A DNA stretch of 55,134 bases, from positions 1 to 55,134 of the IMG/VR virus record IMGVR_UViG_3300029787_000055; one strand, given 5' to 3'. The notes beneath the pieces are model-generated. The model worked only from the letters and a program-made list of their open reading frames with translations, did not search any database and was not told where the DNA came from. Origin of the DNA: a virus. Below, in pieces: positions 1-15,015 of this stretch; within the stretch, counting starts at the first letter, position 1, and every line of letters begins with the position of its first letter. Position numbers and translations under genes: made by a program.

Positions 1-666
1 ATAATCACCAACACTAAATACAGTTGATGAGGGTGCTGCTGTAAAGTTTCCATTATCCCCCGACTCTTTTGCGGCGTTTGAGTTAAGTTGCAAATAATTA
101 GGATAAGAACCATTTAATCCTAAATCCTTATGATAAACCCTCCACGCATCTGAAGAATTTCGTCTTTTAACAATAATCAAATGCGGAACAGCACCTAGTC
201 CATGTTGTACAGTGCCTGCACCTGAAGTTCCTGAATAATCTATAATAGAAAATCCTGCGGTTGTATTTGCTTGATACCCACCACCAGGATTAGTACCACT
301 TTCACTAAAAGTTGTTCTACTTCCACCATTAGCTTTCCATTGCCATGCTACATTGGTTTGTCCGCTTTGATTAAATCCATTTGTGCTCGCTAAAGTAAAA
401 CCATCAGTATTTACTGAAGTAAGAGCTGCATCATTTCCCTCTGCATCATTAGTATCTGAATATAAAGCTTTACCACTTCCTCCTACTCCTCTTGAAGTAT
501 CAAAAATATGGTGACTACTTGTAGAACTTCTTTCTTTAAACCAAAGCCAATCAGCCTGTAAATTTGAATTGCCAGTATTTGTAATTGTGTTTGTGCTATT
601 ATTACCATTGTAAAGTGCTATTTGAAAATATGCAGAAGGATCGTTTATCGTTGTATATACACCCAT
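1..666 (-). CDS. Fiber-cassette protein A, third copy (C-terminus outside window)
   Basis: The first 222 residues of a probable virion surface protein; the gene continues past base 1. It begins MGVYTTINDPSAYFQ, matching the starts of the proteins at 2859-4313 and 6494-7522, and shares with them the blocks WxW near residue 110, NTTAGFSIIDYSG and the QHGLGAVPHLIIVK segment. It lacks the extra domain found in the 2859-4313 paralog. It lies one base after the LamG/SPRY gene 668-2023, and AGGAGG precedes its ATG. It is the last visible gene of the third C-B-A fiber cassette. The family is common in marine phage structural regions as I recall it; the biochemical role is unknown, and host-surface binding is inferred from context. 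Confidence 0.75.
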   Translation of the reverse strand, partial: MGVYTTINDPSAYFQIALYNGNNSTNTITNTGNSNLQADWLWFKERSSTSSHHIFDTSRGVGGSGKALYSDTNDAEGNDAALTSVNTDGFTLASTNGFNQSGQTNVAWQWKANGGSRTTFSESGTNPGGGYQANTTAGFSIIDYSGTSGAGTVQHGLGAVPHLIIVKRRNSSDAWRVYHKDLGLNGSYPNYLQLNSNAAKESGDNGNFTAAPSSTVFSVGDY

Positions 667-667
667 G

Positions 668-2023
668 TTAACCTCCGTATTGTGCCAAGTTCTTTGTACA
701 TAAAGCATAGTACCCTGACGGCACTGCATACTCAAAATTACCATAACCATTTGCATCAGCGTTTCCAGAACTAATTGTAAAAGTAGGATTACCAAAGTTT
801 GCTTGAAAAGTAGATGAAGCTACAGTGCTTTGATCAGCAAATTGAAAAAAGTAAGTAAATCCATCAGTCACAGTAAAAGCAGCTCCCGTTCCTGTAGAAC
901 CAGAAGCAGGATTACCTGAATCTTGAAAAGTTCCGTTTTTAGAAAAATATAATTTTCTATTATCCATATCCAAAGCAACTCCAATAATATCTCCTGTTGT
1001 AAAAGATGCTCCATATGAAGCATTAACACCTGTCGTTCTTTTATTTCCGTCGTTCTGATAAGCATAAGCATTACTGTTGTTCCACCAATCTAGATTTTCA
1101 TCAAAATCATAAAAGGATACACCAGCATCATTTTCAAGACCAATTGCAGCGCTACCAGTTGCATCTACAATTTTGTATTCTGCATACCATTTACCTGAAG
1201 ATACTCCAATACTGCTCATAGATCCTACTCTTTTTCCTGATGATGTTACCGCCTTCAATCCACCTTCAGTTATTGTATTATTTGATGCAAGCAAATTTAA
1301 TGTTGCAAAATTATTTGCAGGAGAATCTTTTGATGAAGGATTTGTTCCTATGTTTGTTGTTGCAAAATGATTATTATTACCACTACTGTCAGCCCCAAAA
1401 CCACTAGCATCAGCACTTGCGCCAGTGCCTTTAAAATCTATTTTAAAACCATTTGAACCATAAGTAATTGACGGAGAAGCATTAGGTATCCAAACACCAT
1501 TTGAATCTGTAGAACCAAAAGATGAAGGAGCATAAGATTGACCATCGCAAAATATAAATTGTGCCATGTTTCCGTCCCAATGTCCTCCAGAATCACTTCC
1601 TCTATAAAGTGTGCCAATCGCATGGCCTATATTATTATTAAAATTTAGATCTGTATTTTGACTTGGCTGAGAACCACTGCCTAAAGTTAATTGTGTTCCA
1701 TTTTTATACATTCTGATTCTATCTGCTGCACTACCTTGTGTCGTGTCTACTCTTACAACAAGATGATACCAAGCATTGGAATCTCTAAAAAAAGCATCCG
1801 TATAAGGTGTTGCTGTTACAGAACCTCCTTGTTCATCTTCTAATTGTATATATCCACTTTTAAGTCTTATATGCCCGTAAGTATTACTTGCAGAACCAGC
1901 ACTTAAAATCACTTTATCATTACTTGATGATGCTCCTAATGCTTGTTTTAACCATACGGAAATCGTAAAAGTTTTTCTATTTCCTGCACTGCTAAATGTT
2001 TTTAATAAATATGTATCAGCCAT
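668..2023 (-). CDS. Fiber-cassette protein B, third copy: LamG-like plus SPRY-like domains
   Basis: Probable tail fiber or virion surface protein of 451 residues. The N-terminal ~180 residues look like a LamG/concanavalin-A-like sandwich (FTISVWLKQ, WYHLVVRVDTTQGS, then a YKNGTQL strand). The C-terminal half resembles a SPRY/B30.2 fold (GKWYAEYKI near residue 280, then GVALDMDNRKLYFSKNG). A linker with GFGADSSGNNNHF joins them. The ATG at 2023 is preferred over an in-frame TTG at 2026 because AGGAAGG lies 4-5 bases upstream. It overlaps the C gene 2016-2858 by 8 bases. Both domain families usually bind carbohydrate or protein ligands, so adhesion to the host surface is the likely role (inference). 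Confidence 0.75.
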   Translation of the reverse strand: MADTYLLKTFSSAGNRKTFTISVWLKQALGASSSNDKVILSAGSASNTYGHIRLKSGYIQLEDEQGGSVTATPYTDAFFRDSNAWYHLVVRVDTTQGSAADRIRMYKNGTQLTLGSGSQPSQNTDLNFNNNIGHAIGTLYRGSDSGGHWDGNMAQFIFCDGQSYAPSSFGSTDSNGVWIPNASPSITYGSNGFKIDFKGTGASADASGFGADSSGNNNHFATTNIGTNPSSKDSPANNFATLNLLASNNTITEGGLKAVTSSGKRVGSMSSIGVSSGKWYAEYKIVDATGSAAIGLENDAGVSFYDFDENLDWWNNSNAYAYQNDGNKRTTGVNASYGASFTTGDIIGVALDMDNRKLYFSKNGTFQDSGNPASGSTGTGAAFTVTDGFTYFFQFADQSTVASSTFQANFGNPTFTISSGNADANGYGNFEYAVPSGYYALCTKNLAQYGG

Positions 2024-2858
2024 CAAACCTTCCTGAATCTTCTAGTGCAAAACTAGATGTTAGTGAAAACGCACGATCTGCTGTTTGCCCTTCTGCATCA
2101 GTGACACGAAGCGTAAAGTTATACGTCGTAGCAGATGTTGACGATCCACCAAAATCAGTAGTAGTTATAACACCTGTTGCTGAGTTTAGCGAGCAATTTG
2201 CTTGTGATGCGTTTGTCAATACGTTTGTTGTTTCAGAAAAAGCTAAAGTGCTATCTCCAGTAGCTGCTACTGTTGCAACTGTTCCTGAAAAATTACCTGC
2301 TATAGTGCCAAGAGAACCAGCTCCTGTAGTCCATGACGGAGCATCAGATACTGTTAATATCGCACCAGATCTTACTGCATTACCATCATTATTTTCTACA
2401 CGAATAAAATAAACACCGTCTGTTGCTAATGTGAAATTAGCTGTAATAGATGTAGCGCTTGTAAACGTAATAGTATTTGCTGCTGTTACTACACCTGTAG
2501 AAGAAATTGCCTCTACTTGAGGAACCGATACAAAATTTGTACCAGCTATAACAACGTTAGTAGCTGTGTTAGGTATTGTGCTTGGTGTAACACCAGTAAC
2601 TGTTGGTTTTGTTTCTCCAATAGTAACAGAACCTCCAAGAGCCACAGCTGATCCGTTTATTGTTATTGAACCACTACCTGTCAGACGAGCGTTGGCTACA
2701 GTTCCTGATGCAACGTTACTACCGTTTAAGGCTGTAAGAGATGCACCAGAACCAGATAAAGTCGCTCCTGCTGTTACCGTTACGGTGTCGCCGTTTTCAC
2801 CAATAGTGATCGAACTACCGTTACGTTTTTTAATAGCATTGACTTTGATTTCTGACAT
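2016..2858 (-). CDS. Fiber-cassette protein C, third copy: TIG/Ig-like adaptor
   Basis: A 280-residue protein made of repeated beta-sandwich segments. The N-terminus (MSEIKVNAIKKRNGSSITIG) is shared with the other two C proteins and resembles short collar or adaptor segments at the base of marine phage fibers. Residues ~85-170 look like an IPT/TIG domain (TPSTIPNTATNVVIAGTNF). Residues ~175-275 look like a cadherin or putative-Ig domain ending FTLRVTDAEGQTADRAFSL. It opens the third C-B-A cassette and is followed with an 8-base overlap by the LamG/SPRY gene. A role as structural spacer or attachment point for the B and A proteins is inferred from the conserved gene order. Confidence 0.7.
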   Translation of the reverse strand: MSEIKVNAIKKRNGSSITIGENGDTVTVTAGATLSGSGASLTALNGSNVASGTVANARLTGSGSITINGSAVALGGSVTIGETKPTVTGVTPSTIPNTATNVVIAGTNFVSVPQVEAISSTGVVTAANTITFTSATSITANFTLATDGVYFIRVENNDGNAVRSGAILTVSDAPSWTTGAGSLGTIAGNFSGTVATVAATGDSTLAFSETTNVLTNASQANCSLNSATGVITTTDFGGSSTSATTYNFTLRVTDAEGQTADRAFSLTSSFALEDSGRFDG

Positions 2859-4313
2859 CTATCCTCCTGTAGCCACTGCGCCACCAGCAACCAATGGATT
2901 TTTAGCAAAAGCCATATACGTAAACATACCGTTATCAGCATTTACTTGATTATAATTACTTCTAAGACAAAAGCCATTTGAATTTATATCTATTTGAGGA
3001 TCGCCACCACCAGCTGCATAAACAGCTTCAGTACCATTACTACTAGCAAATAGAGCTCTATTTGCAACATTGGTTTCGTTTCTCGATTTATCAAAAATAT
3101 GCCAGTGTCCTGTGCTATCTGTTCTTTTAAGCATAACTATTGCTGGTTTAAAACCAGTGTAGACATAAGGACCTGTATTACTACCATTACCTTGGTAATC
3201 ACCAATTTTACTGTATCCTTTTACTTCTGAAAAACAATAAGCTACCATACCAGCATTATCATTAGCACCATCATCAGAACCAAGTGTTATTACAGTAGAA
3301 GTAGGTGAAGTATCATTCCATGCACCACTTCTTGTATCTTCTCCATTAGTGGTGTTAAATTCTAAATATTTACCATTGCCTATGTCTTTATGATATACAT
3401 ACCAATCAAAAGAAATAGATCTTGTCTTTACAAAAACCACGGCAGGTGTCGCACCTAAACCATGTCCAATAGTTGCACCTGCACTAGCATTTCCAGTGTA
3501 TGTAACTATACTAAATCCCGCAGTTGTATTTGCTGATACTTTAGTTAATAATGATCCATCAAAATTAGTTGAACCAAAAGTTGCATTTTGATCTGCTTGT
3601 CCACCCATACCTGAATGATAGTGACAATAATAGTAAAGTGTTGTCGTATTTTGAGGGTTTAAAATAATTTGTCTAGTTGTTGCAGAAGCAAAACCAGATA
3701 CGTATGCTGATTCTGTAACAGTTGAACCATCAAGTTTGTAAGTTACGCCTGTGTTATAAGAACTGCCGCCTCCATGTGTTCCATCAGAAGTTGTACTAAA
3801 TTTCATAGGATGTGATGCTACGCTGCTATCCGATTGATCAAACGTGTAGGTGCCACCTTGTTGTAATGATAAACTTACTGCACTTGCAGCATATGTTGCA
3901 TTATCTGCAGAATTTCTAAATCTATATTTATTACCACTATCGGATACAACTACAACTTTATATGTTTGACTAGGTGTTGCTCCTCCAGCGGCCCACTGCC
4001 AAGCTACATAAGTAACCGAATTTCCATTTAAATTTGCACTTGATCCCAAAGTAAAACCATCAGCCCCTTGAGCAGTTATTGTGGTAGAGTCTGTGTTTTC
4101 TGCGTCACTTCCGTCTACAGTTAATCTTTTTGTAAAACCTCTATTTGAATCAAATGAATTATGATTATAGGTTTGGTTTCTTGCTTTACCCCAAACCCAA
4201 TCTGGTCTTAAATTAGAATTACCGTCATTAGTTATGGCATTTGATGAACCTGTGCCTGTATAAGTTTTAGTTTGAAAATATGCTGAGGGGTCAGTGATTG
4301 TTGTATATGCCAT
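2859..4313 (-). CDS. Fiber-cassette protein A, second copy, with inserted cupredoxin-like domain
   Basis: A 484-residue fiber-associated protein, about 140 residues longer than its paralog at 6494-7522. Residues 1-110 and 255-484 align with the paralogs (DPSAYFQ start, NTTAGFSIV block, C-terminal YMAFAKNPLV). Residues ~115-243 are an extra domain with cupredoxin features: QGGTYTFDQSD, then SHPMKF with His168, and LYYYCHYHSGMGG near the end, giving Cys230, His233 and Met236. C-x2-H-x2-M is the ligand spacing of amicyanin-type blue-copper sites. The family core is known from marine phage structural regions; copper binding is predicted, not shown. It may work as an oligomerisation or receptor domain with or without metal. 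Confidence 0.75.
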   Translation of the reverse strand: MAYTTITDPSAYFQTKTYTGTGSSNAITNDGNSNLRPDWVWGKARNQTYNHNSFDSNRGFTKRLTVDGSDAENTDSTTITAQGADGFTLGSSANLNGNSVTYVAWQWAAGGATPSQTYKVVVVSDSGNKYRFRNSADNATYAASAVSLSLQQGGTYTFDQSDSSVASHPMKFSTTSDGTHGGGSSYNTGVTYKLDGSTVTESAYVSGFASATTRQIILNPQNTTTLYYYCHYHSGMGGQADQNATFGSTNFDGSLLTKVSANTTAGFSIVTYTGNASAGATIGHGLGATPAVVFVKTRSISFDWYVYHKDIGNGKYLEFNTTNGEDTRSGAWNDTSPTSTVITLGSDDGANDNAGMVAYCFSEVKGYSKIGDYQGNGSNTGPYVYTGFKPAIVMLKRTDSTGHWHIFDKSRNETNVANRALFASSNGTEAVYAAGGGDPQIDINSNGFCLRSNYNQVNADNGMFTYMAFAKNPLVAGGAVATGG

Positions 4314-4316
4314 AAT

Positions 4317-5630
4317 CTATCCGTATGTTTCTATATTTTTTGTACAAAGTGCAAAGTACCCTGATGGTACTGAATAAGCAAATTTTCCTTGACCTGCAGC
4401 ATCTGCATTTGTAAAATCATCATTTGTACTAGAATTTCCAGTATTCAAATGTAATTGAACATCCGTTCCATTATCTGCTTCACCAATTGATGCCATAGGA
4501 GTAAAGAAAATATTATCACCTGTTGTGATGCCTGTATAGGCATTTCCTAAATCAGATCCTTGTAAAAATCCTATAGTACCATTATCTAAATCTAGTTTGC
4601 ATCCTACAACAGAATGACTACTAAAACTAGAGCCGTAAGAAGCACTAGAATTGTTGTGAATTTTAGTTCCATTGTTTTGCATACCCCAACCAGTAGTTGA
4701 TCTCCAAGGACCTTGGTTTTGTGTAGCTATATATGAGTTAAATAAAGTATCTGTTCTTGCTGCTCCAAGTATTATGTAAGGACTATCACCAGTAGCACCG
4801 TTTTTAAATTCCCAATACCATTTTCCTTTAGATACTGCTAATGTTCCTAAAGCAGTTCTCCAAGCGGAATTGTTACTGTTTTCTATTGATTGAGCTCCAT
4901 TGTAAACTACTAAACTAGTGTGCGCTGCATTTTTATTCCAAGTGCAAAAATTATTACTTGGAGTATCTGTCATTTTTGGATTTGTAGGAACTGAACTATT
5001 AGAAAAGTTATGTCCTTCACCACTGCTATCCAAACCCATATTAGAAGCATCTTCAAATTTTAATCTAAAACCATTATTACCATAAGAAACTCCAGACCAT
5101 GTTGTTTTTGGTGTCCACACTCCGTTTGAATTAGTTTGTCCAAAAATAGTTGGAGCATATGTTTGAGTATCAAAAAAGCCAAGGTCTGCTACATAACCAG
5201 AATATACTCCATTGCTTTTTCCGACTGTCATTACTGTATTGTTATCACACCAATAAGTATAATAATTTTGAGTTGGATATGAACTTGATTCTAAGTCTGT
5301 TTGTAGTTCTCCATTTATATATATCTTAACTCTATTTGAAGCTGTGCCTTGAGTCGTATCTGTTTGTATAACAAGATGATACCAACCTGAAGTATCTCTA
5401 AAAACTCTATTTGTTCTTACATTGCCTGTAGTTGAACCACTATTAACAGTGAGCCATTGTAATCTATCATTGTGAAATCTTACTGTAGTGTAATTATTAC
5501 CATCAACTCTAGCTTCAAACATATGTTGTTCCCCTGAAGCTTTAAAACTTTGTCGTTTAAACCACATACTTAATGTGTTGGTTCTACCACCTGCTGTTGA
5601 ACTTACTTGTGTCCTAGATAAATAACTCAT
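4317..5630 (-). CDS. Fiber-cassette protein B, second copy: LamG-like plus SPRY-like
   Basis: A 437-residue paralog of 668-2023 and 7524-8921. The N-terminal LamG-like half shows TLSMWFKRQSF, WYHLVIQTDTTQGTAS and KIYINGELQT. The C-terminal SPRY-like half shows KGKWYWEFKNG and VVGCKLDLDNGTIGFLQ, and it ends VPSGYFALCTKNIETYG, a tail shared by all three B proteins. The ATG overlaps the stop region of the C gene 5630-6490 (TAATG). Sequence between the anchor motifs has diverged strongly from the other copies, as expected for receptor-binding parts, while the repeated ends suggest conserved assembly surfaces (inference). Confidence 0.75.
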   Translation of the reverse strand: MSYLSRTQVSSTAGGRTNTLSMWFKRQSFKASGEQHMFEARVDGNNYTTVRFHNDRLQWLTVNSGSTTGNVRTNRVFRDTSGWYHLVIQTDTTQGTASNRVKIYINGELQTDLESSSYPTQNYYTYWCDNNTVMTVGKSNGVYSGYVADLGFFDTQTYAPTIFGQTNSNGVWTPKTTWSGVSYGNNGFRLKFEDASNMGLDSSGEGHNFSNSSVPTNPKMTDTPSNNFCTWNKNAAHTSLVVYNGAQSIENSNNSAWRTALGTLAVSKGKWYWEFKNGATGDSPYIILGAARTDTLFNSYIATQNQGPWRSTTGWGMQNNGTKIHNNSSASYGSSFSSHSVVGCKLDLDNGTIGFLQGSDLGNAYTGITTGDNIFFTPMASIGEADNGTDVQLHLNTGNSSTNDDFTNADAAGQGKFAYSVPSGYFALCTKNIETYG

Positions 5631-6490
5631 TAACTACCATCCATTCTGAATGAGTTCTGTATACCAGAAGATATTGTAATTGAAAATGCTCTATCAGCAG
5701 TTTGTGCCTGTGCGTCAGTTGCACGAACTGTAAAATTGTATGTTGTACTTTGAGTAGCTCCAGATTCTGTACCTGTAATAGTTGCTGACCCTGATCCTGT
5801 ATTTAAAGATAGTCCTCCAGGTAATGAACCTGATGTTATAGAAAATGACGTGGCGTCCGTTGCAGTAATTGTAATAGTTCCAACATTTGCACCAGCATTA
5901 AAAGTTCCAAGAGAACCTGCAGATGTTTGCCAAGCTGGAACATCAGACACTGTAAGTAAAGCAGATCCACTACGAACAGCGTTACCATCATTATTTTCTA
6001 TCCTTATAAAATAAGCACCATCAGTTGCTAATGTAAAATTTGCTACTAATTGAGATGCACTGTTAAATGTAATTGAGTTGGCTGCAGTTATTGTACCAGT
6101 AGAACTTATTGCTTCTACTATTGGCACCGATACATAATTTGATCCATTAATAGTTACATTAGTTGCATCGTTTGTAATGACTGTTGGGCTAATAGAAGAG
6201 ATTGTTGGTTTTGTTTCACCAACAGTAACCGATCCACCAAGTGCAACAGCTGAACCATTTATTGTGATTGAATTATTATCTAGCTTTGCATTTGTAATAC
6301 TATCATCTGCTAGACGTGCAACGTTTAAAGTTCCTGATGCTAAATTTGAAGCATTTAATGCTGTAAGTCCAGAGCCAGATCCTGCTAAACTTGCACCAGC
6401 TGTCAATGTTATAGTATCGCCATTTTCACCAATTGTAATGGAAGATCCTGAATTTTTTTTGATCGTGTTTACTTTGATCTCTGAGGTCAT
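5630..6490 (-). CDS. Fiber-cassette protein C, second copy: TIG/Ig-like adaptor
   Basis: A 286-residue paralog of 2016-2858 and 8923-9801. It begins MTSEIKVNTIKKNSGSS, carries an insertion DDSITNAKLDNNSITING around residues 60-75 that is typical of phage tail-fiber shafts, then an IPT/TIG-like segment (ISPTVITNDATNVTINGSNY) and a putative-Ig segment ending NFTVRATDAQAQTADRAFSI. The following B gene starts on its stop codon. It is likely a structural base for the second fiber set. No enzymatic residues were recognised. Confidence 0.7.
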   Translation of the reverse strand: MTSEIKVNTIKKNSGSSITIGENGDTITLTAGASLAGSGSGLTALNASNLASGTLNVARLADDSITNAKLDNNSITINGSAVALGGSVTVGETKPTISSISPTVITNDATNVTINGSNYVSVPIVEAISSTGTITAANSITFNSASQLVANFTLATDGAYFIRIENNDGNAVRSGSALLTVSDVPAWQTSAGSLGTFNAGANVGTITITATDATSFSITSGSLPGGLSLNTGSGSATITGTESGATQSTTYNFTVRATDAQAQTADRAFSITISSGIQNSFRMDGS

Positions 6491-6493
6491 TGT

Positions 6494-7522
6494 TTATCTC
6501 GCTTGTACTGGTACGCCGTCAGTAAAAACTTGAGGTAACTCTGCCCATGCAGCATACAATACATTTTCGGCATTGTAGTTAATATCACCTTCTGCATTTG
6601 TTAATTTAAATCCGTTAGAGTGTATTTCTAATTCTGAATTTGCAGCAGTGTTTTCACCATTTAAAACATTCGCTCTTAAATAATTATTTTCAGGATTAAA
6701 ACCATCTCTTTTGTGATCGTAATATCTCCAAGCGCCTCCTGTTGTCTTTTTACATATAATAAATGCTGGTCTAAATCCTGTAAAAATTTTTGGTCCATCA
6801 GAGCTGTTGTTTGATTTGTAAGTTCCAAATGCACTATATCCTCTTATAGGTTTCCAAGCATAGCACATGTAATCATTACTATCTGATTGCCCTTCTGTAA
6901 AAAGAGTGCTAGTAAAATTACTAAAACCAGACACAGTTCCAAAAGCATTTGTTGTGTTTACTCCAGCAGATTGATTACCTCCCCAAATTTTAGGAAACAT
7001 GCCGTACCAACCTCCAGTTGCGTTCATATTTTTTGCCATAAAAAAAGAAGGTATTTCTCCTAGTCCGTGTCCTACGGTTCCACCAGTTGAGCTACCTGCG
7101 TTAAATTGAATAATACTAAATCCTGCTGTGCTATTGTTTTGAACTAAAGCAGTTCTAGTTCCATCAGTATTACTAGGGCTTGAGCCAGCGTTGCCTTTCC
7201 AACACATAGCTACATAGTTATTACCATTATTATTAACATCAGATGCAGTGCCTAGAGTAAAACCATCTGTATTTGCTGCAGTAACTCTGTTACTATTAGT
7301 TTGTTCTGCTTGAGTAGAGTCTGTGTAAATATACTTAGTTAAACCTCTAGTAGTGTTTGTTAAAATATTACTATAACTATTTGAGTCCCTTTCCTTAATC
7401 CATAAAAAATCAGGTTGTAAATTAGCTGGACCATCATTTGTAGGGCTATGACCACTACCTGTGCCTGCGTATGTATCGATTTGAAAGTGTGCTGAAGGTT
7501 GATTGATTGAATAATTTGCCAT
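6494..7522 (-). CDS. Fiber-cassette protein A, first copy
   Basis: A 342-residue protein that represents the plain form of the A family: MANYSINQPSAHFQIDTYAG start, an NSTAGFSIIQFN block, a GTVGHGLGEIPSFF strand and a C-terminal YAAWAELPQVF. It has no inserted domain, which defines the edges of the cupredoxin-like insert in the 2859-4313 paralog. The gene sits 1-3 bases from its neighbours in the first C-B-A cassette. The function is unknown beyond probable exposure on the tail fiber. Confidence 0.72.
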   Translation of the reverse strand: MANYSINQPSAHFQIDTYAGTGSGHSPTNDGPANLQPDFLWIKERDSNSYSNILTNTTRGLTKYIYTDSTQAEQTNSNRVTAANTDGFTLGTASDVNNNGNNYVAMCWKGNAGSSPSNTDGTRTALVQNNSTAGFSIIQFNAGSSTGGTVGHGLGEIPSFFMAKNMNATGGWYGMFPKIWGGNQSAGVNTTNAFGTVSGFSNFTSTLFTEGQSDSNDYMCYAWKPIRGYSAFGTYKSNNSSDGPKIFTGFRPAFIICKKTTGGAWRYYDHKRDGFNPENNYLRANVLNGENTAANSELEIHSNGFKLTNAEGDINYNAENVLYAAWAELPQVFTDGVPVQAR

Positions 7523-7523
7523 G

Positions 7524-8921
7524 TTAATATTGTCCTAAATTTTTTGAGCATATAGCATAATATCCTGAAGGTACAGCGTATTCAAAACTACCATATCCAT
7601 TAGCATCAGAATTGCTAGATGCAATTGTGAAAGTAGGTTGACCAAAGTTTATTTGCATAACTCCACTTTGACCACCATCAAAATAACATAAACCTGGAAC
7701 CCAAAAGTTATATCCCGAAGCACGGACTTCTGGCGTTGTTAATGCTTGAGCTCCTGTTTTAGATGCTCCAGAAGTTGGCACTCCTGAATTTTGCCATACT
7801 CCATTTTTAGCAAAGTATATTGCTGCGTTATCACAGTCCATTGCAACGGAAACTATATCACCAGCAGTATAAGCAGCATACGTTCCTGGTGTTGTACCAT
7901 TTGTTCTTATCTGACCATAGCCATAATAATAACATCCACTAAGATTAGAGTTACCACCGTCACCACCTCCATAATCATTTTCTTGTGGTGTTGAAACCAT
8001 TACTCCTGTTCCATACCAATCACTGCCACCACTCTTACTAACAGCTTTCATTTCCCAATACCATTTACCTGTTCTAATACCCATGGTTGCATTTGCAAAT
8101 TCATACCTTGAACTATCTGAAGTCATTTTTAAATTACCTTCAGAAAAAGTATTTGAAGCTGTATACACACCTTGATCAGCATCCATAGTACAAAAATTAT
8201 TTTGTGGAGTGTCTGATACACTTGGATTAGTTCCTAAATTAGCAGACGCAAAATGATTACCATTGCCTGAAGTGTCCGCACCAAAACCATTGGCATCAGC
8301 AGAAGCACCAGTGCCACCAAAAGATAATCTATATCCATTATTTCCATATGTTACACTAGGGGCAGTATTAGGTATCCATGCCCCATTTGTATTAGAGGAT
8401 CCAAATACAGTTGGCGCATACGATTGACCATCTGCAAAAATCATTTCTGAAAAATAAACTCCTCCATTAGTTGCACCACCAACGGTAGTTGTTTGTCCAC
8501 TTGCATAACCTGGTATATCATAGTTTTGTGCAGGTTGGTTACCTTCGTCTGATAAACCTCCTAAAGTTTGTTGCTCACCATTTACATAAACTCTTATTCT
8601 ATCACCAGCAGATCCTTGAGTTGTATCTATTCTTACTACACAATGATACCATCCTGCTTGGTCTTTAAATCTCATTTTTGTACCTACAACATATTGAGGA
8701 TTTTGGTTATCAGCTAAATGTATTCTTAATCTAGACCAGTTAGCTTGTGCACTTCTATCATCTAAGTAAATAGAATAATAAGTAGGAGAAGATTGATATT
8801 GAACTATTTTTGTGGATCCACTACCCAAACCCGTTTTAACTGATCGTTTCATCCACCAAGAAAGTGTAGATATTCTTTGTGATGTTGGAGTTCCAATTGT
8901 TCTTGTTAATGTAGTTGCCAT
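7524..8921 (-). CDS. Fiber-cassette protein B, first copy: LamG-like plus SPRY-like
   Basis: A 465-residue LamG/SPRY-type protein. N-terminal landmarks are STLSWWMKRSV, WYHCVVRIDTTQGS and YVNGEQQTLGG. C-terminal landmarks are TGKWYWEMKAV, VSVAMDCDNAAIYFAKNG and the shared ending VPSGYYAICSKNLGQY. The ATG at 8921 is chosen over an in-frame TTG at 8933 because the paralogs begin at the equivalent Met. The preceding C gene stops at 8923. It has probable adhesin or fiber function by domain type and context. Confidence 0.75.
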   Translation of the reverse strand: MATTLTRTIGTPTSQRISTLSWWMKRSVKTGLGSGSTKIVQYQSSPTYYSIYLDDRSAQANWSRLRIHLADNQNPQYVVGTKMRFKDQAGWYHCVVRIDTTQGSAGDRIRVYVNGEQQTLGGLSDEGNQPAQNYDIPGYASGQTTTVGGATNGGVYFSEMIFADGQSYAPTVFGSSNTNGAWIPNTAPSVTYGNNGYRLSFGGTGASADANGFGADTSGNGNHFASANLGTNPSVSDTPQNNFCTMDADQGVYTASNTFSEGNLKMTSDSSRYEFANATMGIRTGKWYWEMKAVSKSGGSDWYGTGVMVSTPQENDYGGGDGGNSNLSGCYYYGYGQIRTNGTTPGTYAAYTAGDIVSVAMDCDNAAIYFAKNGVWQNSGVPTSGASKTGAQALTTPEVRASGYNFWVPGLCYFDGGQSGVMQINFGQPTFTIASSNSDANGYGSFEYAVPSGYYAICSKNLGQY

Positions 8922-8922
8922 A

Positions 8923-9801
8923 TTACGGATCAAACCTTCCTGCTGTAGTTATACTAAAACTTGATGTTAACGTAAAGTTTCTATTAGCTGTTTGACCTTG
9001 AGCATCTGTTACTCGCAATGTGAAACTGTATGTTGTTGCACTCGTACTAGAACCTCCAAAGTCAGAAGTTGTAATAACTCCTGTAGCAGAGTTTAATGTA
9101 CAATTTGCTTGTCCAGCGTTTGTTAAAACATTTGTAGTTTCAGAGTAAGCTAGTGTGCTATCACCTGTAGCTGCAACGGTAGCGACCGTACCAGAAAAGT
9201 TTCCTGCAATAGTCCCTAACGATCCTGCGTTTGTAGTCCAAGTAGGGGCATCTGACACAGTAAGTAAAGCACTTGAACTTCTTCCTGCGTTACCATCATT
9301 GTTTTCTACTCTTAAAAAATATGTACCGTCTGTTGGTAAAGTAAAGTTTGCAGTGATTGATGTAGCACTTGTATACGTTACAGTATTTGCAGCAATAATT
9401 GCACCTGTAGAAGCAATAGCTTCAACTTGTGGTATTGATACAAAGTTTTGTCCTGTAATAACTACGTTTGTAGCTGTGTTGGGAATAGTAGATGGACTAA
9501 TTGAAGATACAACGGGTTTTACTTCGGCAGCAGAAGATGCAAAAGTTATTGTTTCATTACCTCCAGCACCATTTAATGTAATTGTTATATTAGTTCCCGC
9601 TACTATTTTTGATTGAAGAAAATTTCTTGTAGTGTCTTGAGCAGAAATAAGGATTTTTCCATCACCTGTTATACCCGTAACCGTAGCGCCCGTAGCATCA
9701 AGCGTAGCTCCAGCAGGGACATCTACCGTATCACCATTTTCACCAAGTTGTAAATTTGTACCCGACTGTGGTATGACTTTATCTACTTCAATCTGACTCA
9801 T
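8923..9801 (-). CDS. Fiber-cassette protein C, first copy: TIG/Ig-like adaptor
   Basis: A 292-residue protein, first gene of the first C-B-A cassette. The start MSQIEVDKVIPQSGTNLQLG is a variant of the SEIKV N-terminus of the other C copies and resembles fiber base segments. A region near residues 50-90 (TRNFLQSKIVAGTNITITL) is typical of phage fiber shafts. It is followed by IPT/TIG-like (SPSTIPNTATNVVITGQNF) and putative-Ig-like (FTLRVTDAQGQTANRNFTL) segments that are nearly the same as in the third copy, so these two copies look closer to each other than to the second. Confidence 0.7.
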   Translation of the reverse strand: MSQIEVDKVIPQSGTNLQLGENGDTVDVPAGATLDATGATVTGITGDGKILISAQDTTRNFLQSKIVAGTNITITLNGAGGNETITFASSAAEVKPVVSSISPSTIPNTATNVVITGQNFVSIPQVEAIASTGAIIAANTVTYTSATSITANFTLPTDGTYFLRVENNDGNAGRSSSALLTVSDAPTWTTNAGSLGTIAGNFSGTVATVAATGDSTLAYSETTNVLTNAGQANCTLNSATGVITTSDFGGSSTSATTYSFTLRVTDAQGQTANRNFTLTSSFSITTAGRFDP

Positions 9802-10241
9802 AATGTAATTGTTAAAGATCCTGTCACTGTAACAGGACCAGCTAAAACACCAGAATCCATTGTCTGTGTATCACTAATAGTAGCATTATGTGTAGTTACA
9901 TAAGATGTAGGATCCATGCTGGGAGATGGCGCCCTCTTTGCTGGATACGTACAAAATACATCTTTAGTTCCTGCAGAAAAATTTACTTTGTTATCACTAT
10001 TAGAACTCTCTAAAACTGTGTCTCTTGATAATGTATCAGGAGAAGCATCAGTAACAGTGCCTATTCCTACTTCAAATTCCGTGCTACCTGACTGCATTGT
10101 AATACAGTAATACGTAGTATTAGTAGTTCCAACAGCACCAACAAAAGTTTGAAAACCAGTGCTTGCTCCTGCAAGATTTATAGTTCCTGTTCCTGTTGAT
10201 GTCGTGGTTTCCTTAACACGATCATTGATAATCAATGCCAT
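9798..10241 (-). CDS. Conserved phage structural protein, fiber proximal
   Basis: A 147-residue protein, MALIINDRVKETTTSTGTGT, with FQTFVGAVG, TYYCITMQSG, EVGIGTV, DTLSRDTVL and KDVFCTYPAKR. This motif series recurs in marine tailed-phage structural modules as I recall, usually just before fiber genes. The C-terminal 35 residues are beta-rich and end in TVTGSLTITL. It overlaps the start of the first C fiber gene by 4 bases (ATGA-type junction). A role linking the tail to the fibers is inferred only from position. Confidence 0.65.
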   Translation of the reverse strand: MALIINDRVKETTTSTGTGTINLAGASTGFQTFVGAVGTTNTTYYCITMQSGSTEFEVGIGTVTDASPDTLSRDTVLESSNSDNKVNFSAGTKDVFCTYPAKRAPSPSMDPTSYVTTHNATISDTQTMDSGVLAGPVTVTGSLTITL

Positions 10242-11396: not shown

Positions 11397-11906
11397 CTAT
11401 CCCTCTATTGTTACTGGACCTGAAGTACAAACAGATCCTCCAAATCTTTCATTAGCTCCTACTGATGTTCCTGAAGAAGCTGTAAAATGATATTCATCAG
11501 GACTGTTGACAGGAACAGTTATTAAATATCCAAAAGCATTTTCTAAAACATTTTCTGTAAATCCATTACCTGCATTACAGTTTCTAAATCTTACTCTATC
11601 TCCTGTAGTTCTACCATGACTATTTTCAATTACATAAATTACATTTGTTGCAGCAGCTTTATTATAAAAAGGATTACTAACTAATAATCTAGCAGCAGCT
11701 GTTTCTACACGATCCGGTCTTGCATCTTGTAAAGCTTGAGGATCAGGAGCAACTCTTATAGGTTGTAGTTGTGGTTGTTTGGATTCAAACTCTGATCTAT
11801 GAACCAAAGCTCCTGTCCATTCTCTTATCATTTCATTATATGGAAAAGCAAAACCTGATCTATCAGATATAGCTTGAGAATTTTTGCCAGAAGAAAATTT
11901 TCCCAT
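11397..11906 (-). CDS. Conserved virion protein between two adaptor genes
   Basis: A 169-residue protein with a short helical N-terminus (SGKNSQAISDRSGFAFPYNE), EWTGALVHRSEFE, and a beta-rich C-terminal region with IYVIENSHGRTTGDRVRF and EYHFTASSGTSVGAN. I recall this protein as a regular neighbour of adaptor proteins in marine podoviruses, but I cannot name a family. It is probably a minor head-tail or tail protein. There is a one-base gap to each neighbour. Confidence 0.6.
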   Translation of the reverse strand: MGKFSSGKNSQAISDRSGFAFPYNEMIREWTGALVHRSEFESKQPQLQPIRVAPDPQALQDARPDRVETAAARLLVSNPFYNKAAATNVIYVIENSHGRTTGDRVRFRNCNAGNGFTENVLENAFGYLITVPVNSPDEYHFTASSGTSVGANERFGGSVCTSGPVTIEG

Positions 11907-12748: not shown

Positions 12749-13321
12749 CTACATTTGTGATAAAGGGTTTTCCAATGCGAGTTTTATTCTTTTCTCCACC
12801 TTTTCTTCTAGCTCAGTCATGGCTGATTCCAACTTACCCGACAATAATTCCATGTCTTCCTTTATGTCCTTCGTGGTATCTTTTAACTCCGAGCTGGTTT
12901 CTCTCGAATCTTCTTTAACCATTTGTTCTACATCATTAACTATTTTTTCTACTCGTCTTACATCTTGACGTAAATCATTTTTAAGTTCATTGGCTACATC
13001 ACTTACAAGGCGAATTTCTGACATCATCATTTCCATTTCACCCATAAGCATTTCTATTTCTGTTTGTAATAAATCTGTTTTGCCTTTCATTTCTTCTTTT
13101 GTAATAGCAATCTCTTTATCAAAACCAGATAAATCTGGTGCCACATATTCCTGTATCTGTTCTTTCATCGTTAGGTAGTCTTTGTAAAATTCAAAACCTC
13201 CCCATAAAGCACCACCTGCTGTGGTTAGTGCTGTAAGAATGACAAAGATTTTGCCACCTTTAAATTTTATACCACCTGGTAATTCTACTTCTGCCATTGC
13301 TATTCCGAATCCGTCTGCCAT
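12749..13321 (-). CDS. Membrane-anchored coiled-coil protein
   Basis: A 190-residue protein with one predicted membrane segment at about residues 25-46 (IFVILTALTTAGGALWGGF) and a long Glu/Lys/Met-rich coiled coil over residues ~70-185 (EIEMLMGEMEMMMSEIRL and on). It has no signal-peptidase site, so the coil probably stays on one side of the inner membrane. It overlaps the end of the exported 571-residue gene by 22 bases. Spanin-like, envelope-remodelling or superinfection functions are all possible; none is shown by a motif. Confidence 0.6.
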   Translation of the reverse strand: MADGFGIAMAEVELPGGIKFKGGKIFVILTALTTAGGALWGGFEFYKDYLTMKEQIQEYVAPDLSGFDKEIAITKEEMKGKTDLLQTEIEMLMGEMEMMMSEIRLVSDVANELKNDLRQDVRRVEKIVNDVEQMVKEDSRETSSELKDTTKDIKEDMELLSGKLESAMTELEEKVEKRIKLALENPLSQM

Positions 13322-15015
13322 TGTTGCATTATCATTTCGTCCATCATAACATTACTTCCTCCAAATAGAAACCATTGAGCTGTATTATTATTTTCTAATT
13401 GAGTATCTGGTAACATATAATCTGTAAAAAAATCTAATCTATCTTCTAATTGTTTTTGTGAATCAAAAAAAGTTTTAGAATCACCTAAAACTTGCATTAC
13501 AATTAATGTTTTTAATTGATTTGTAGAATCATATCTACCTTTATCCCCCATTTTTTCTACAATTTTTTTAGCTGCTTTTTCTTTTTTAGATTCGTTTTGT
13601 TTTTTTGGCTGCTCTTTAGGTTCTTCTTTTTTTTCTACTTTTGTAGGTTTCTCATCAGACTCTTCATCTTCTTCCGATTGTACTTCTTCTTGTTCAGAAT
13701 CACTCTCATCTTCCACAGGGGATTCTTCAGCAGGTTTGCTATCGGATTCTGTTTCTTCTGTTGTTTCTGGCTCATTACTTGTTTCTTCTACCTCAGGTTG
13801 CATTTCAGGTTCTGCTTCTACCTCAGGTTCAGGCATACTTTCAACCTCTACTTCTGTTTCCATTTCAGGAGCACCTTCTGGCATATCCATTTCAGGCATA
13901 TCCATTTCAGGATCTGGTAATTCTAAATCTGGCATTTCTAATTCCATTTCCATTTCAAACTCCATTTCCATTTCAATGTTTGCCATTTCTATTTCAGGCA
14001 TATCTACTTCCATGACAGGCATTTCAAAATCCATCTCAAAATCCATTTCCATTTCCATCTCTACTGTTTCATATGAAACATTCATATCAGGCTCATCAAA
14101 CTCTGGTTCAAAATACATATCATCACCAGGAGCATCTGGAACTATAATGTCATTGTGTTCAAAAATATTTTCTACAATATCTATAACTTCTGTTTCTGTG
14201 CTGCCTCCCATGGCCACCCACATTTCAACTGTTGTAATTTGTTCTGTAACTATTGTTGATACTACATTGTAAAGTACATTTATGCTAATATCATCAAAGA
14301 GTGGTCCGATTGCCATATTAATATCACGTCCACCAATTTCTATTATCAACGTTGTTATTGATCCTGCAAAATCAAAACCATTTTCATATTCTTGATAGCC
14401 ACTGGCTACGCCAGATTCTGATAATATATCCGTACCACTAAATACGTTTGTCTTACCATTACGACCTGTAATATGCATATAGATACGATCTTGTGCATCT
14501 TGTTTATCAACTTTAATTGTGTAATTAGTTCTTCCTCCATTTTCTATATCAAGTGAAGATATATCAACTGTATTAATAAAGGTTGTACCCATACCATCAA
14601 CACCCATGCTCGACGTACTATTACCACTCCCTGTTATTTGTGCACATTTATCGGTACCTAATCCATAACAATTATTACCTGAAGGCATGTTAGCAGGCCC
14701 TTGGCCTCCCCAGTCCGAATCCATATCACCTTCTTTTGTAGAACTAACATAGCCGTTATCACCATCAAGAATATCTCCTGAATCTTCATTTGTGATTGTT
14801 ACTGTCGTTGTAGTAGTGGTAGTTTCTGTAGTTATTGTATAACCATCAGCACCATGTTCTGTAGTTTCAACTATATCTTCTACAATAGTTTCTTCTACTC
14901 CTGGTGTGCAAACACCTGAAGCAGTTACTGGGCATTGAGCTCTAAGGGAAGAAGGCCACGATGCCAGAATGCATAACCATAGCAGCAATAATAAATTTTG
15001 CCAGTTTAGATGCAT
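13300..15015 (-). CDS. Exported acidic protein with long Glu-Met repeat region
   Basis: A 571-residue protein with a clear signal peptide (LLLLLWLCILASWPSSLRAQ, residues ~7-26). Residues ~27-280 are Thr/Ser/Gly-rich and probably beta-structured. Residues ~300-420 are built from Glu-Met and Asp/Glu-Met-Pro units such as MEMEMDFEMDFEMP. They are followed by an extremely acidic then Lys/Glu-rich linker and a helical C-terminal ~90 residues. The ATG at 15015 is supported by AAGGAG nine bases upstream although it lies 74 bases inside the previous gene. A role in the periplasm or on the virion is possible; Met-rich acidic repeats can bind soft metals, which is speculation here. Confidence 0.65.
   Translation of the reverse strand: MHLNWQNLLLLLWLCILASWPSSLRAQCPVTASGVCTPGVEETIVEDIVETTEHGADGYTITTETTTTTTTVTITNEDSGDILDGDNGYVSSTKEGDMDSDWGGQGPANMPSGNNCYGLGTDKCAQITGSGNSTSSMGVDGMGTTFINTVDISSLDIENGGRTNYTIKVDKQDAQDRIYMHITGRNGKTNVFSGTDILSESGVASGYQEYENGFDFAGSITTLIIEIGGRDINMAIGPLFDDISINVLYNVVSTIVTEQITTVEMWVAMGGSTETEVIDIVENIFEHNDIIVPDAPGDDMYFEPEFDEPDMNVSYETVEMEMEMDFEMDFEMPVMEVDMPEIEMANIEMEMEFEMEMELEMPDLELPDPEMDMPEMDMPEGAPEMETEVEVESMPEPEVEAEPEMQPEVEETSNEPETTEETESDSKPAEESPVEDESDSEQEEVQSEEDEESDEKPTKVEKKEEPKEQPKKQNESKKEKAAKKIVEKMGDKGRYDSTNQLKTLIVMQVLGDSKTFFDSQKQLEDRLDFFTDYMLPDTQLENNNTAQWFLFGGSNVMMDEMIMQQWQTDSE

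Follow-up and report, generated by a model that had tools for sequence, protein, structure and literature searches.

What does a domain with the ligand pattern of a blue-copper protein do in a phage fiber? One of three paralogous fiber genes in the viral DNA studied here codes for a segment that has no counterpart in the other two, and this segment holds a His, a Cys, a second His and a Met in the order known from amicyanin. We can therefore ask whether it is a separate domain, whether it has a cupredoxin fold, whether the four residues are conserved in its relatives, and which function such a domain may have on the virion.

The fiber gene and its inserted domain

The window, that is, the whole stretch of DNA analyzed, covers 55,134 of the 56,618 bases of a viral contig. 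The terminase of this phage shares 62-66% identity with those of the pelagiphages HTVC027P and HTVC023P and of two further phages, and the gene content resembles that of HTVC027P. The window phage is a podovirus, kin of the HTVC023P/HTVC027P pelagiphages. The fiber gene 2859-4313 sits in the virion gene cluster; its features and those of related genes are collected in Table 1.

Table 1. Features of the window related to the inserted domain
Feature	Positions	Strand	Evidence
DUF7483 fiber protein, 484 aa, bearing the inserted domain	2859..4313	-	PF24299, phrog_24898, AF2
Predicted cupredoxin-like domain, residues 115-243, between the N- and C-terminal DUF7483 parts	3585..3971	-	AF2, fold matches, phrog_708
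His168, predicted N-terminal copper ligand	3810..3812	-	invariant 81/81
Cys230, predicted copper ligand, the only Cys of the domain	3624..3626	-	invariant 81/81
His233, predicted copper ligand	3615..3617	-	invariant 81/81
Met236, predicted axial ligand; Gln in some cyanophage copies	3606..3608	-	invariant 81/81
DUF7483 fiber paralog without the domain	6494..7522	-	PF24299, three-way alignment
Third DUF7483 fiber paralog, partial (contig edge), without the domain	1..663	-	three-way alignment
Virion-cluster protein; homologs elsewhere with the domain inserted after residue ~63, window copy without it	9798..10241	-	homologs L063, L064, L067
Virion-cluster protein; homologs elsewhere with the domain downstream of the conserved N-terminus, window copy without it	11397..11906	-	homologs L056, L059, L083, L093, L117

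The product of 2859-4313 matched PF24299 (DUF7483) with an E-value of 2e-98 (329.9 bits, cut-off 27) in two stretches, the best of them at residues 245-473, and the paralog 6494-7522 matched the same family as one stretch (residues 8-330). The product was also matched by the tail fiber family phrog_24898 (E 5e-82). When the three fiber proteins are aligned, 6494-7522 and 1-663 both cross a gap covering residues 115-243, which confirms the original observation that they lack the insert; positions 3585-3971 correspond exactly to these residues. The match to phrog_708, a baseplate wedge subunit, covers the same segment (E 5.5e-14). In the AF2 model of the full-length product (pLDDT 88.2, pTM 0.89) the domain is placed between both DUF7483 parts. 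A Foldseek search with this full-length model gave no match at E <= 1e-3 and is thus uninformative on the DUF7483 parts. Residues 115-243 are a clean extra domain which splits the DUF7483 fiber protein.

Positions 1-9801 of the window (minus strand) hold three tandem repeats of a three-gene cassette, consisting of an Ig-like gene of He_PIG/PKD type, a SPRY-type fiber gene and a DUF7483 fiber gene. Other phages (for example L010 and L015) encode fusions of the SPRY-type with the DUF7483 part, as proteins of ~950 aa. At 13300-15015 (minus strand) the window codes for a protein of 571 aa in which a long repeat region is rich in Met and Glu and strongly acidic.

Predicted fold and sequence links to cupredoxins

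An AF2 model built on 31 aligned viral relatives shows residues 110-247 as a beta-sandwich (pLDDT 85.6, pTM 0.83). The best Foldseek matches in PDB were, at E 5e-4, the three-domain nitrite reductases (NirK) of Hyphomicrobium (6tfo and 2dv6); multicopper oxidases, AcoP, pseudoazurin, rusticyanin and amicyanin followed lower in the list. Some antibody chains appear in it too, and ranks three and four went to an aspartic peptidase of Shewanella. The TM-scores of ~0.5 indicate that the model is a distant cupredoxin. VIA-align put the N-terminal cupredoxin domain of 2dv6 at the top (Z 9.5, 107 aligned residues, 3.0 A), and rusticyanin structures reached Z 8.0-8.5 (2cal 8.5). The cupredoxin-like fold expected at the outset was therefore recovered on the level of structure prediction, with a beta-sandwich whose best fold matches are mostly cupredoxins.

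The Greek-key beta-sandwich of 7-8 strands, which defines the cupredoxin superfamily, is present in the predicted structure. The ligand arrangement of this superfamily (an N-terminal His, then Cys-His-Met/Gln in the last inter-strand loop) was found both in the sequence and in the DSSP order. In the model, H168 is placed directly before a strand. C230 closes the penultimate strand, and the loop between it and the last strand contains H233 and M236, as in cupredoxins.

Sequence searches of PDB that started from the domain alone, or from the set of close phage relatives, gave only chance matches and no cupredoxin. A profile of 22 diverse members, cellular as well as viral, gave PDB matches most of which were plastocyanins, amicyanins and rusticyanins (best E 8e-4). 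The Pfam family PF00127 (Copper-bind) did not match the window copy; it gave weak matches in 2 of 31 close relatives and matches at E<0.1 in 7 of the 22 members of the wider family. One cellular member, from Woeseiaceae, exceeded the Copper-bind cut-off (24.8 bits vs 21.2). Profile comparison with true Copper-bind proteins was weak, with a probability of 35-54%. The matches to Pfam Eryth_link_C and to ribosomal protein L31 were discarded as weak look-alikes. NCBIfam gave no match to the window copy, PADLOC gave none, and a search for PF13473 in 14 host genomes found little. No entry of Pfam, PHROGs or NCBIfam names the domain, so a dedicated profile would annotate many virion proteins which are now called "hypothetical".

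Conservation of the predicted copper ligands

The order of His168, Cys230, His233 and Met236 and the C-x2-H-x2-M spacing, both of amicyanin type, had been read correctly from the sequence of the product. These residues are conserved in homologs, with no variation at any of the four positions among the fiber-type copies of the domain (81 of 81). Identity among these copies falls to ~52%, and 65 of them contain a ligand-free search seed. Relatives of the domain are encoded in 330 stretches of viral contigs. With this recurrence and this invariance, the domain and its four-residue pattern are far beyond chance.

To avoid circularity, the seeds of the ligand-blind scans were restricted to N-terminal halves, where no ligand lies. 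Together with the phage isolates they yielded 259 copies with His, Cys, His and Met (HCHM) and 12 with Gln at the axial position (HCHQ); in 38 copies the His, Cys and His are all absent, and in 4 the first His alone is kept. Not one of the resolved copies has just one of the Cys and the second His, and the axial residue of complete sites changes to Gln only. Replacement of Met by Gln is a known axial substitution in type-1 sites, Gln being the axial ligand of stellacyanin. Dereplication at 80% left 69 HCHM, 3 HCHQ and 8 all-absent copies, the remainder being unresolved or truncated. A strict all-or-none rule for the four ligands was dropped, since a degenerate sub-clade retains the first His. 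The joint loss of Cys and His is the pattern that would be expected for a lost metal site. Apart from gp080 of Cyanophage PSS2, the ligand-less copies are mostly found at one paralogous position of a cyanophage baseplate protein, and so they point to few independent losses.

Could the cupredoxin fold serve for binding alone, with His, Cys, His and Met as structural relics of a metal site? The ligand-less copies in the cyanophage baseplate proteins and in PSS2 gp080 persist, and so the fold can serve without metal. However, a metal-free scaffold agrees poorly with the invariance of four residues across fiber-type copies of such low identity, with the joint retention or loss of Cys and His, and with the restriction of axial changes to Gln, and we regard it as decidedly unlikely for the fiber domain.

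The segment H231-Y-H233 also contains an HxH motif, which might be taken for an iron site of the T4 gp37/Ferrojan type and not for a part of the copper site. The HxH sites of gp37 belong to a different structural context, a trimeric needle fiber instead of a cupredoxin sandwich. We rejected this reading as highly improbable because H231 is variable, being present in only 42 of the 81 copies, whereas C230, H233 and M236 are invariant.

Taken together, the fold match, the 81/81 ligands, the paired loss of Cys and His and the Copper-bind member give good support to the prediction that residues 115-243 are a cupredoxin-like domain with a complete set of type-1 copper ligands.

Distribution and mobility of the domain

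At the beginning the domain was considered to be unusual for a phage fiber. This view had to be given up, as the domain occurs in well over 100 records of phages and in marine viral contigs that number in the hundreds. The search found 121 phage records at E<=1e-5 and 146 with a consensus query at E<=1e-3, mostly of Synechococcus and Prochlorococcus phages, and also of pelagiphages and methylophages. The carrier proteins include the baseplate wedge initiator gp7 of P-HM2, the tail fibers of Baldr and Melnitz and a virion protein of S-TIM61. In BFVD, 59 predicted viral structures matched at E<=1e-3, among them cyanophage tail fibers and baseplate connectors.

Several tandem cupredoxin-like copies were seen in cyanophage baseplate proteins (isolates L170 to L185, and L186-L265); among these copies one has an axial Gln (C-x2-H-x2-Q) and one lacks Cys and His. 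PSS2 gp080 (L178, 992-1330) is a stand-alone cupredoxin-like protein of ~112 aa without the ligands. Its gene directly follows the tape measure gene and is annotated as a baseplate wedge subunit.

In cellular genomes the domain was found in proteins of SAR86, Woeseiaceae, Porticoccaceae and Bacteroidetes, many of them with a signal peptide and a lipobox. In marine bacterial lipoproteins (L099, L107, L124, L136, L146 and others), which have a signal peptide and an ACGGGG lipobox, the domain occupies the C-terminal end. For several contigs with a cellular label a phage origin is probable, because their ORFs resemble the window protein 11397-11906 or T7-like fibers. Seven contigs filed as Pelagibacter genomes (Pelagibacteraceae; L091, L098, L102, L118, L132, L133, L154) encode T7-like tail fibers that include the domain. 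Their DNA is probably of phage or prophage origin and close to that of Fussvirus S30C28. In a tree of 127 copies, based on 113 columns and with many forks open, viral and cellular copies are intermixed, and at least five switches between viral and cellular labels are required by the branches with good support.

The location of the domain varies between genes of the same cluster. Homologs of 9798-10241 in other phages have it inside, with flanks that align to residues 1-63 and ~72-146, and in homologs of 11397-11906 it is attached behind the conserved start. At the fiber site, the insert is present in 4 of the 58 resolved DUF7483 relatives, which were found through their C-terminal part irrespective of the insert; the other 54 lack it and mostly have a junction of 1-18 residues. 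The module has thus moved between virion proteins, and these insertions and attachments mark it as a mobile cassette circulating among the adsorption-apparatus proteins of one gene cluster.

Possible function

We consider the following explanation the best one and assign it a probability of about 0.6: a ready-made module of type-1 copper type has entered a DUF7483 fiber, where it would act as a copper-stabilised, interchangeable display element for adhesion or host contact. In this scheme the module came into one DUF7483 fiber with its ligand set intact (His168, Cys230, His233, the axial Met236 and the short C-x2-H-x2-M loop), and the predicted site most likely binds one copper ion. The bound copper would lock the ligand loop and so produce a small rigid beta-sandwich on the fiber surface, which could be swapped as an adhesion or host-contact module in the manner of phage Ig-like domains. 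Folding of phage proteins takes place in the cytosol, which has little free copper, so the ion would presumably be loaded after release from the cytosol, upon lysis. The assembly of phage proteins in a cytosol in which copper is tightly held counts against a copper-bound state. We infer copper as the metal and, instead of electron transfer, a structural or adhesive role; display or adhesion is the most likely role as judged only from location and mobility.

A blue copper site on the virion might alternatively trade electrons with periplasmic or surface redox proteins of the host, or act as an antioxidant. The full type-1 ligand set, including an axial Met or Gln, is a hallmark of tuned redox sites, but the genes beside 2859-4313 include no recognisable redox partner, and the occurrence of the domain on many unrelated virion proteins is a better fit to a display module. 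A redox function is therefore improbable.

It is also conceivable that the copper ion itself takes part in the receptor interaction, like a Trojan horse directed at copper-handling surface proteins of the host. The phage could display its bound copper, or it could present the surface of a copper protein which mimics the marine bacterial lipoproteins. The location in fiber and baseplate proteins, the relatives among lipoproteins with signal peptide and lipobox, and an iron analogue proposed for marine phage tail fibers (PMC11705849) are in line with this idea. On the other hand, no receptor is known, copper is buried in type-1 sites, degenerate ligand-less copies persist, and the domain occurs in baseplate proteins too, which together make such an interaction unlikely. 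The metal-stabilised adhesion or display module remains the most likely of the functions considered.

The recurrence of the module suggests, rather than proves, that marine phage particles carry copper. A much broader reading, which we regard as doubtful, would see marine phage virions as copper proteins, with a mobile module on fibers and baseplates that is common to lipoproteins of co-occurring ocean bacteria, with copper acting in host recognition or entry, and with phages as part of the pool of copper ligands in seawater. If true, it would be for copper what the Ferrojan horse is for iron. With copper-carrying particles, phage-host contact would possibly include a metal-dependent element, phage particles would be linked to trace-metal chemistry, and a mobile, well-defined fold would join the short list of display modules of phage tails.

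Comparison with known systems

The phage domain resembles amicyanin and other cupredoxins (plastocyanin, rusticyanin, AcoP, the N-terminal domain of NirK) in its predicted beta-sandwich, in the order His...Cys-x2-His-x2-Met and in a Cys that terminates the penultimate strand, and plastocyanin and amicyanin are its profile relatives. It has the C-x2-H-x2-M ligand loop of the amicyanin subfamily. In contrast, amicyanin is an exported, periplasmic single-domain carrier for methylamine dehydrogenase, while the phage domain lies within a virion protein and has no known electron-transfer partner; the ORF 2859-4313 starts with MAYTTITDPSAYFQTKTYTG and has no evident signal peptide. The stretch from His to Cys is also longer, 62 residues compared with 39 in amicyanin.

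The C-terminal domain of the SAR86, Woeseiaceae and Porticoccaceae lipoproteins is closer, with ~35-54% identity, the four ligands in common and the common motifs HP..FSTTSDGTHGGG and LYYYC..HSGMGG, but these proteins are cellular, secreted and lipid-anchored. The same domain, mostly with the same ligands, is found in P-HM2 gp7, the S-RIM2/Syn33 baseplate protein, S-TIM5, S-B68, the Baldr and Melnitz tail fibers and phrog_708. These cyanophage and pelagiphage copies differ in their carrier proteins, some have an axial Gln or no site, and none of the annotations covered calls them cupredoxins.

Phage Ig-like display domains are likewise interchangeable elements of adsorption proteins, although their fold is different. 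The HxH iron sites of tail fibers (T4 gp37; PMC11705849) are metal-binding adsorption elements too, with another fold and other metal ligands. The Ferrojan horse, discussed for iron in marine phage tail fibers, is the nearest published concept (PMC11705849). No earlier description of a cupredoxin module in phage fibers or baseplates was found in the open-access literature searched, nor in the paper on HTVC023P-type pelagiphages. Cupredoxins as such have long been known; what appears to be new, relative to that literature, is a mobile module of predicted type-1 copper type in the fibers and baseplates of marine phages.
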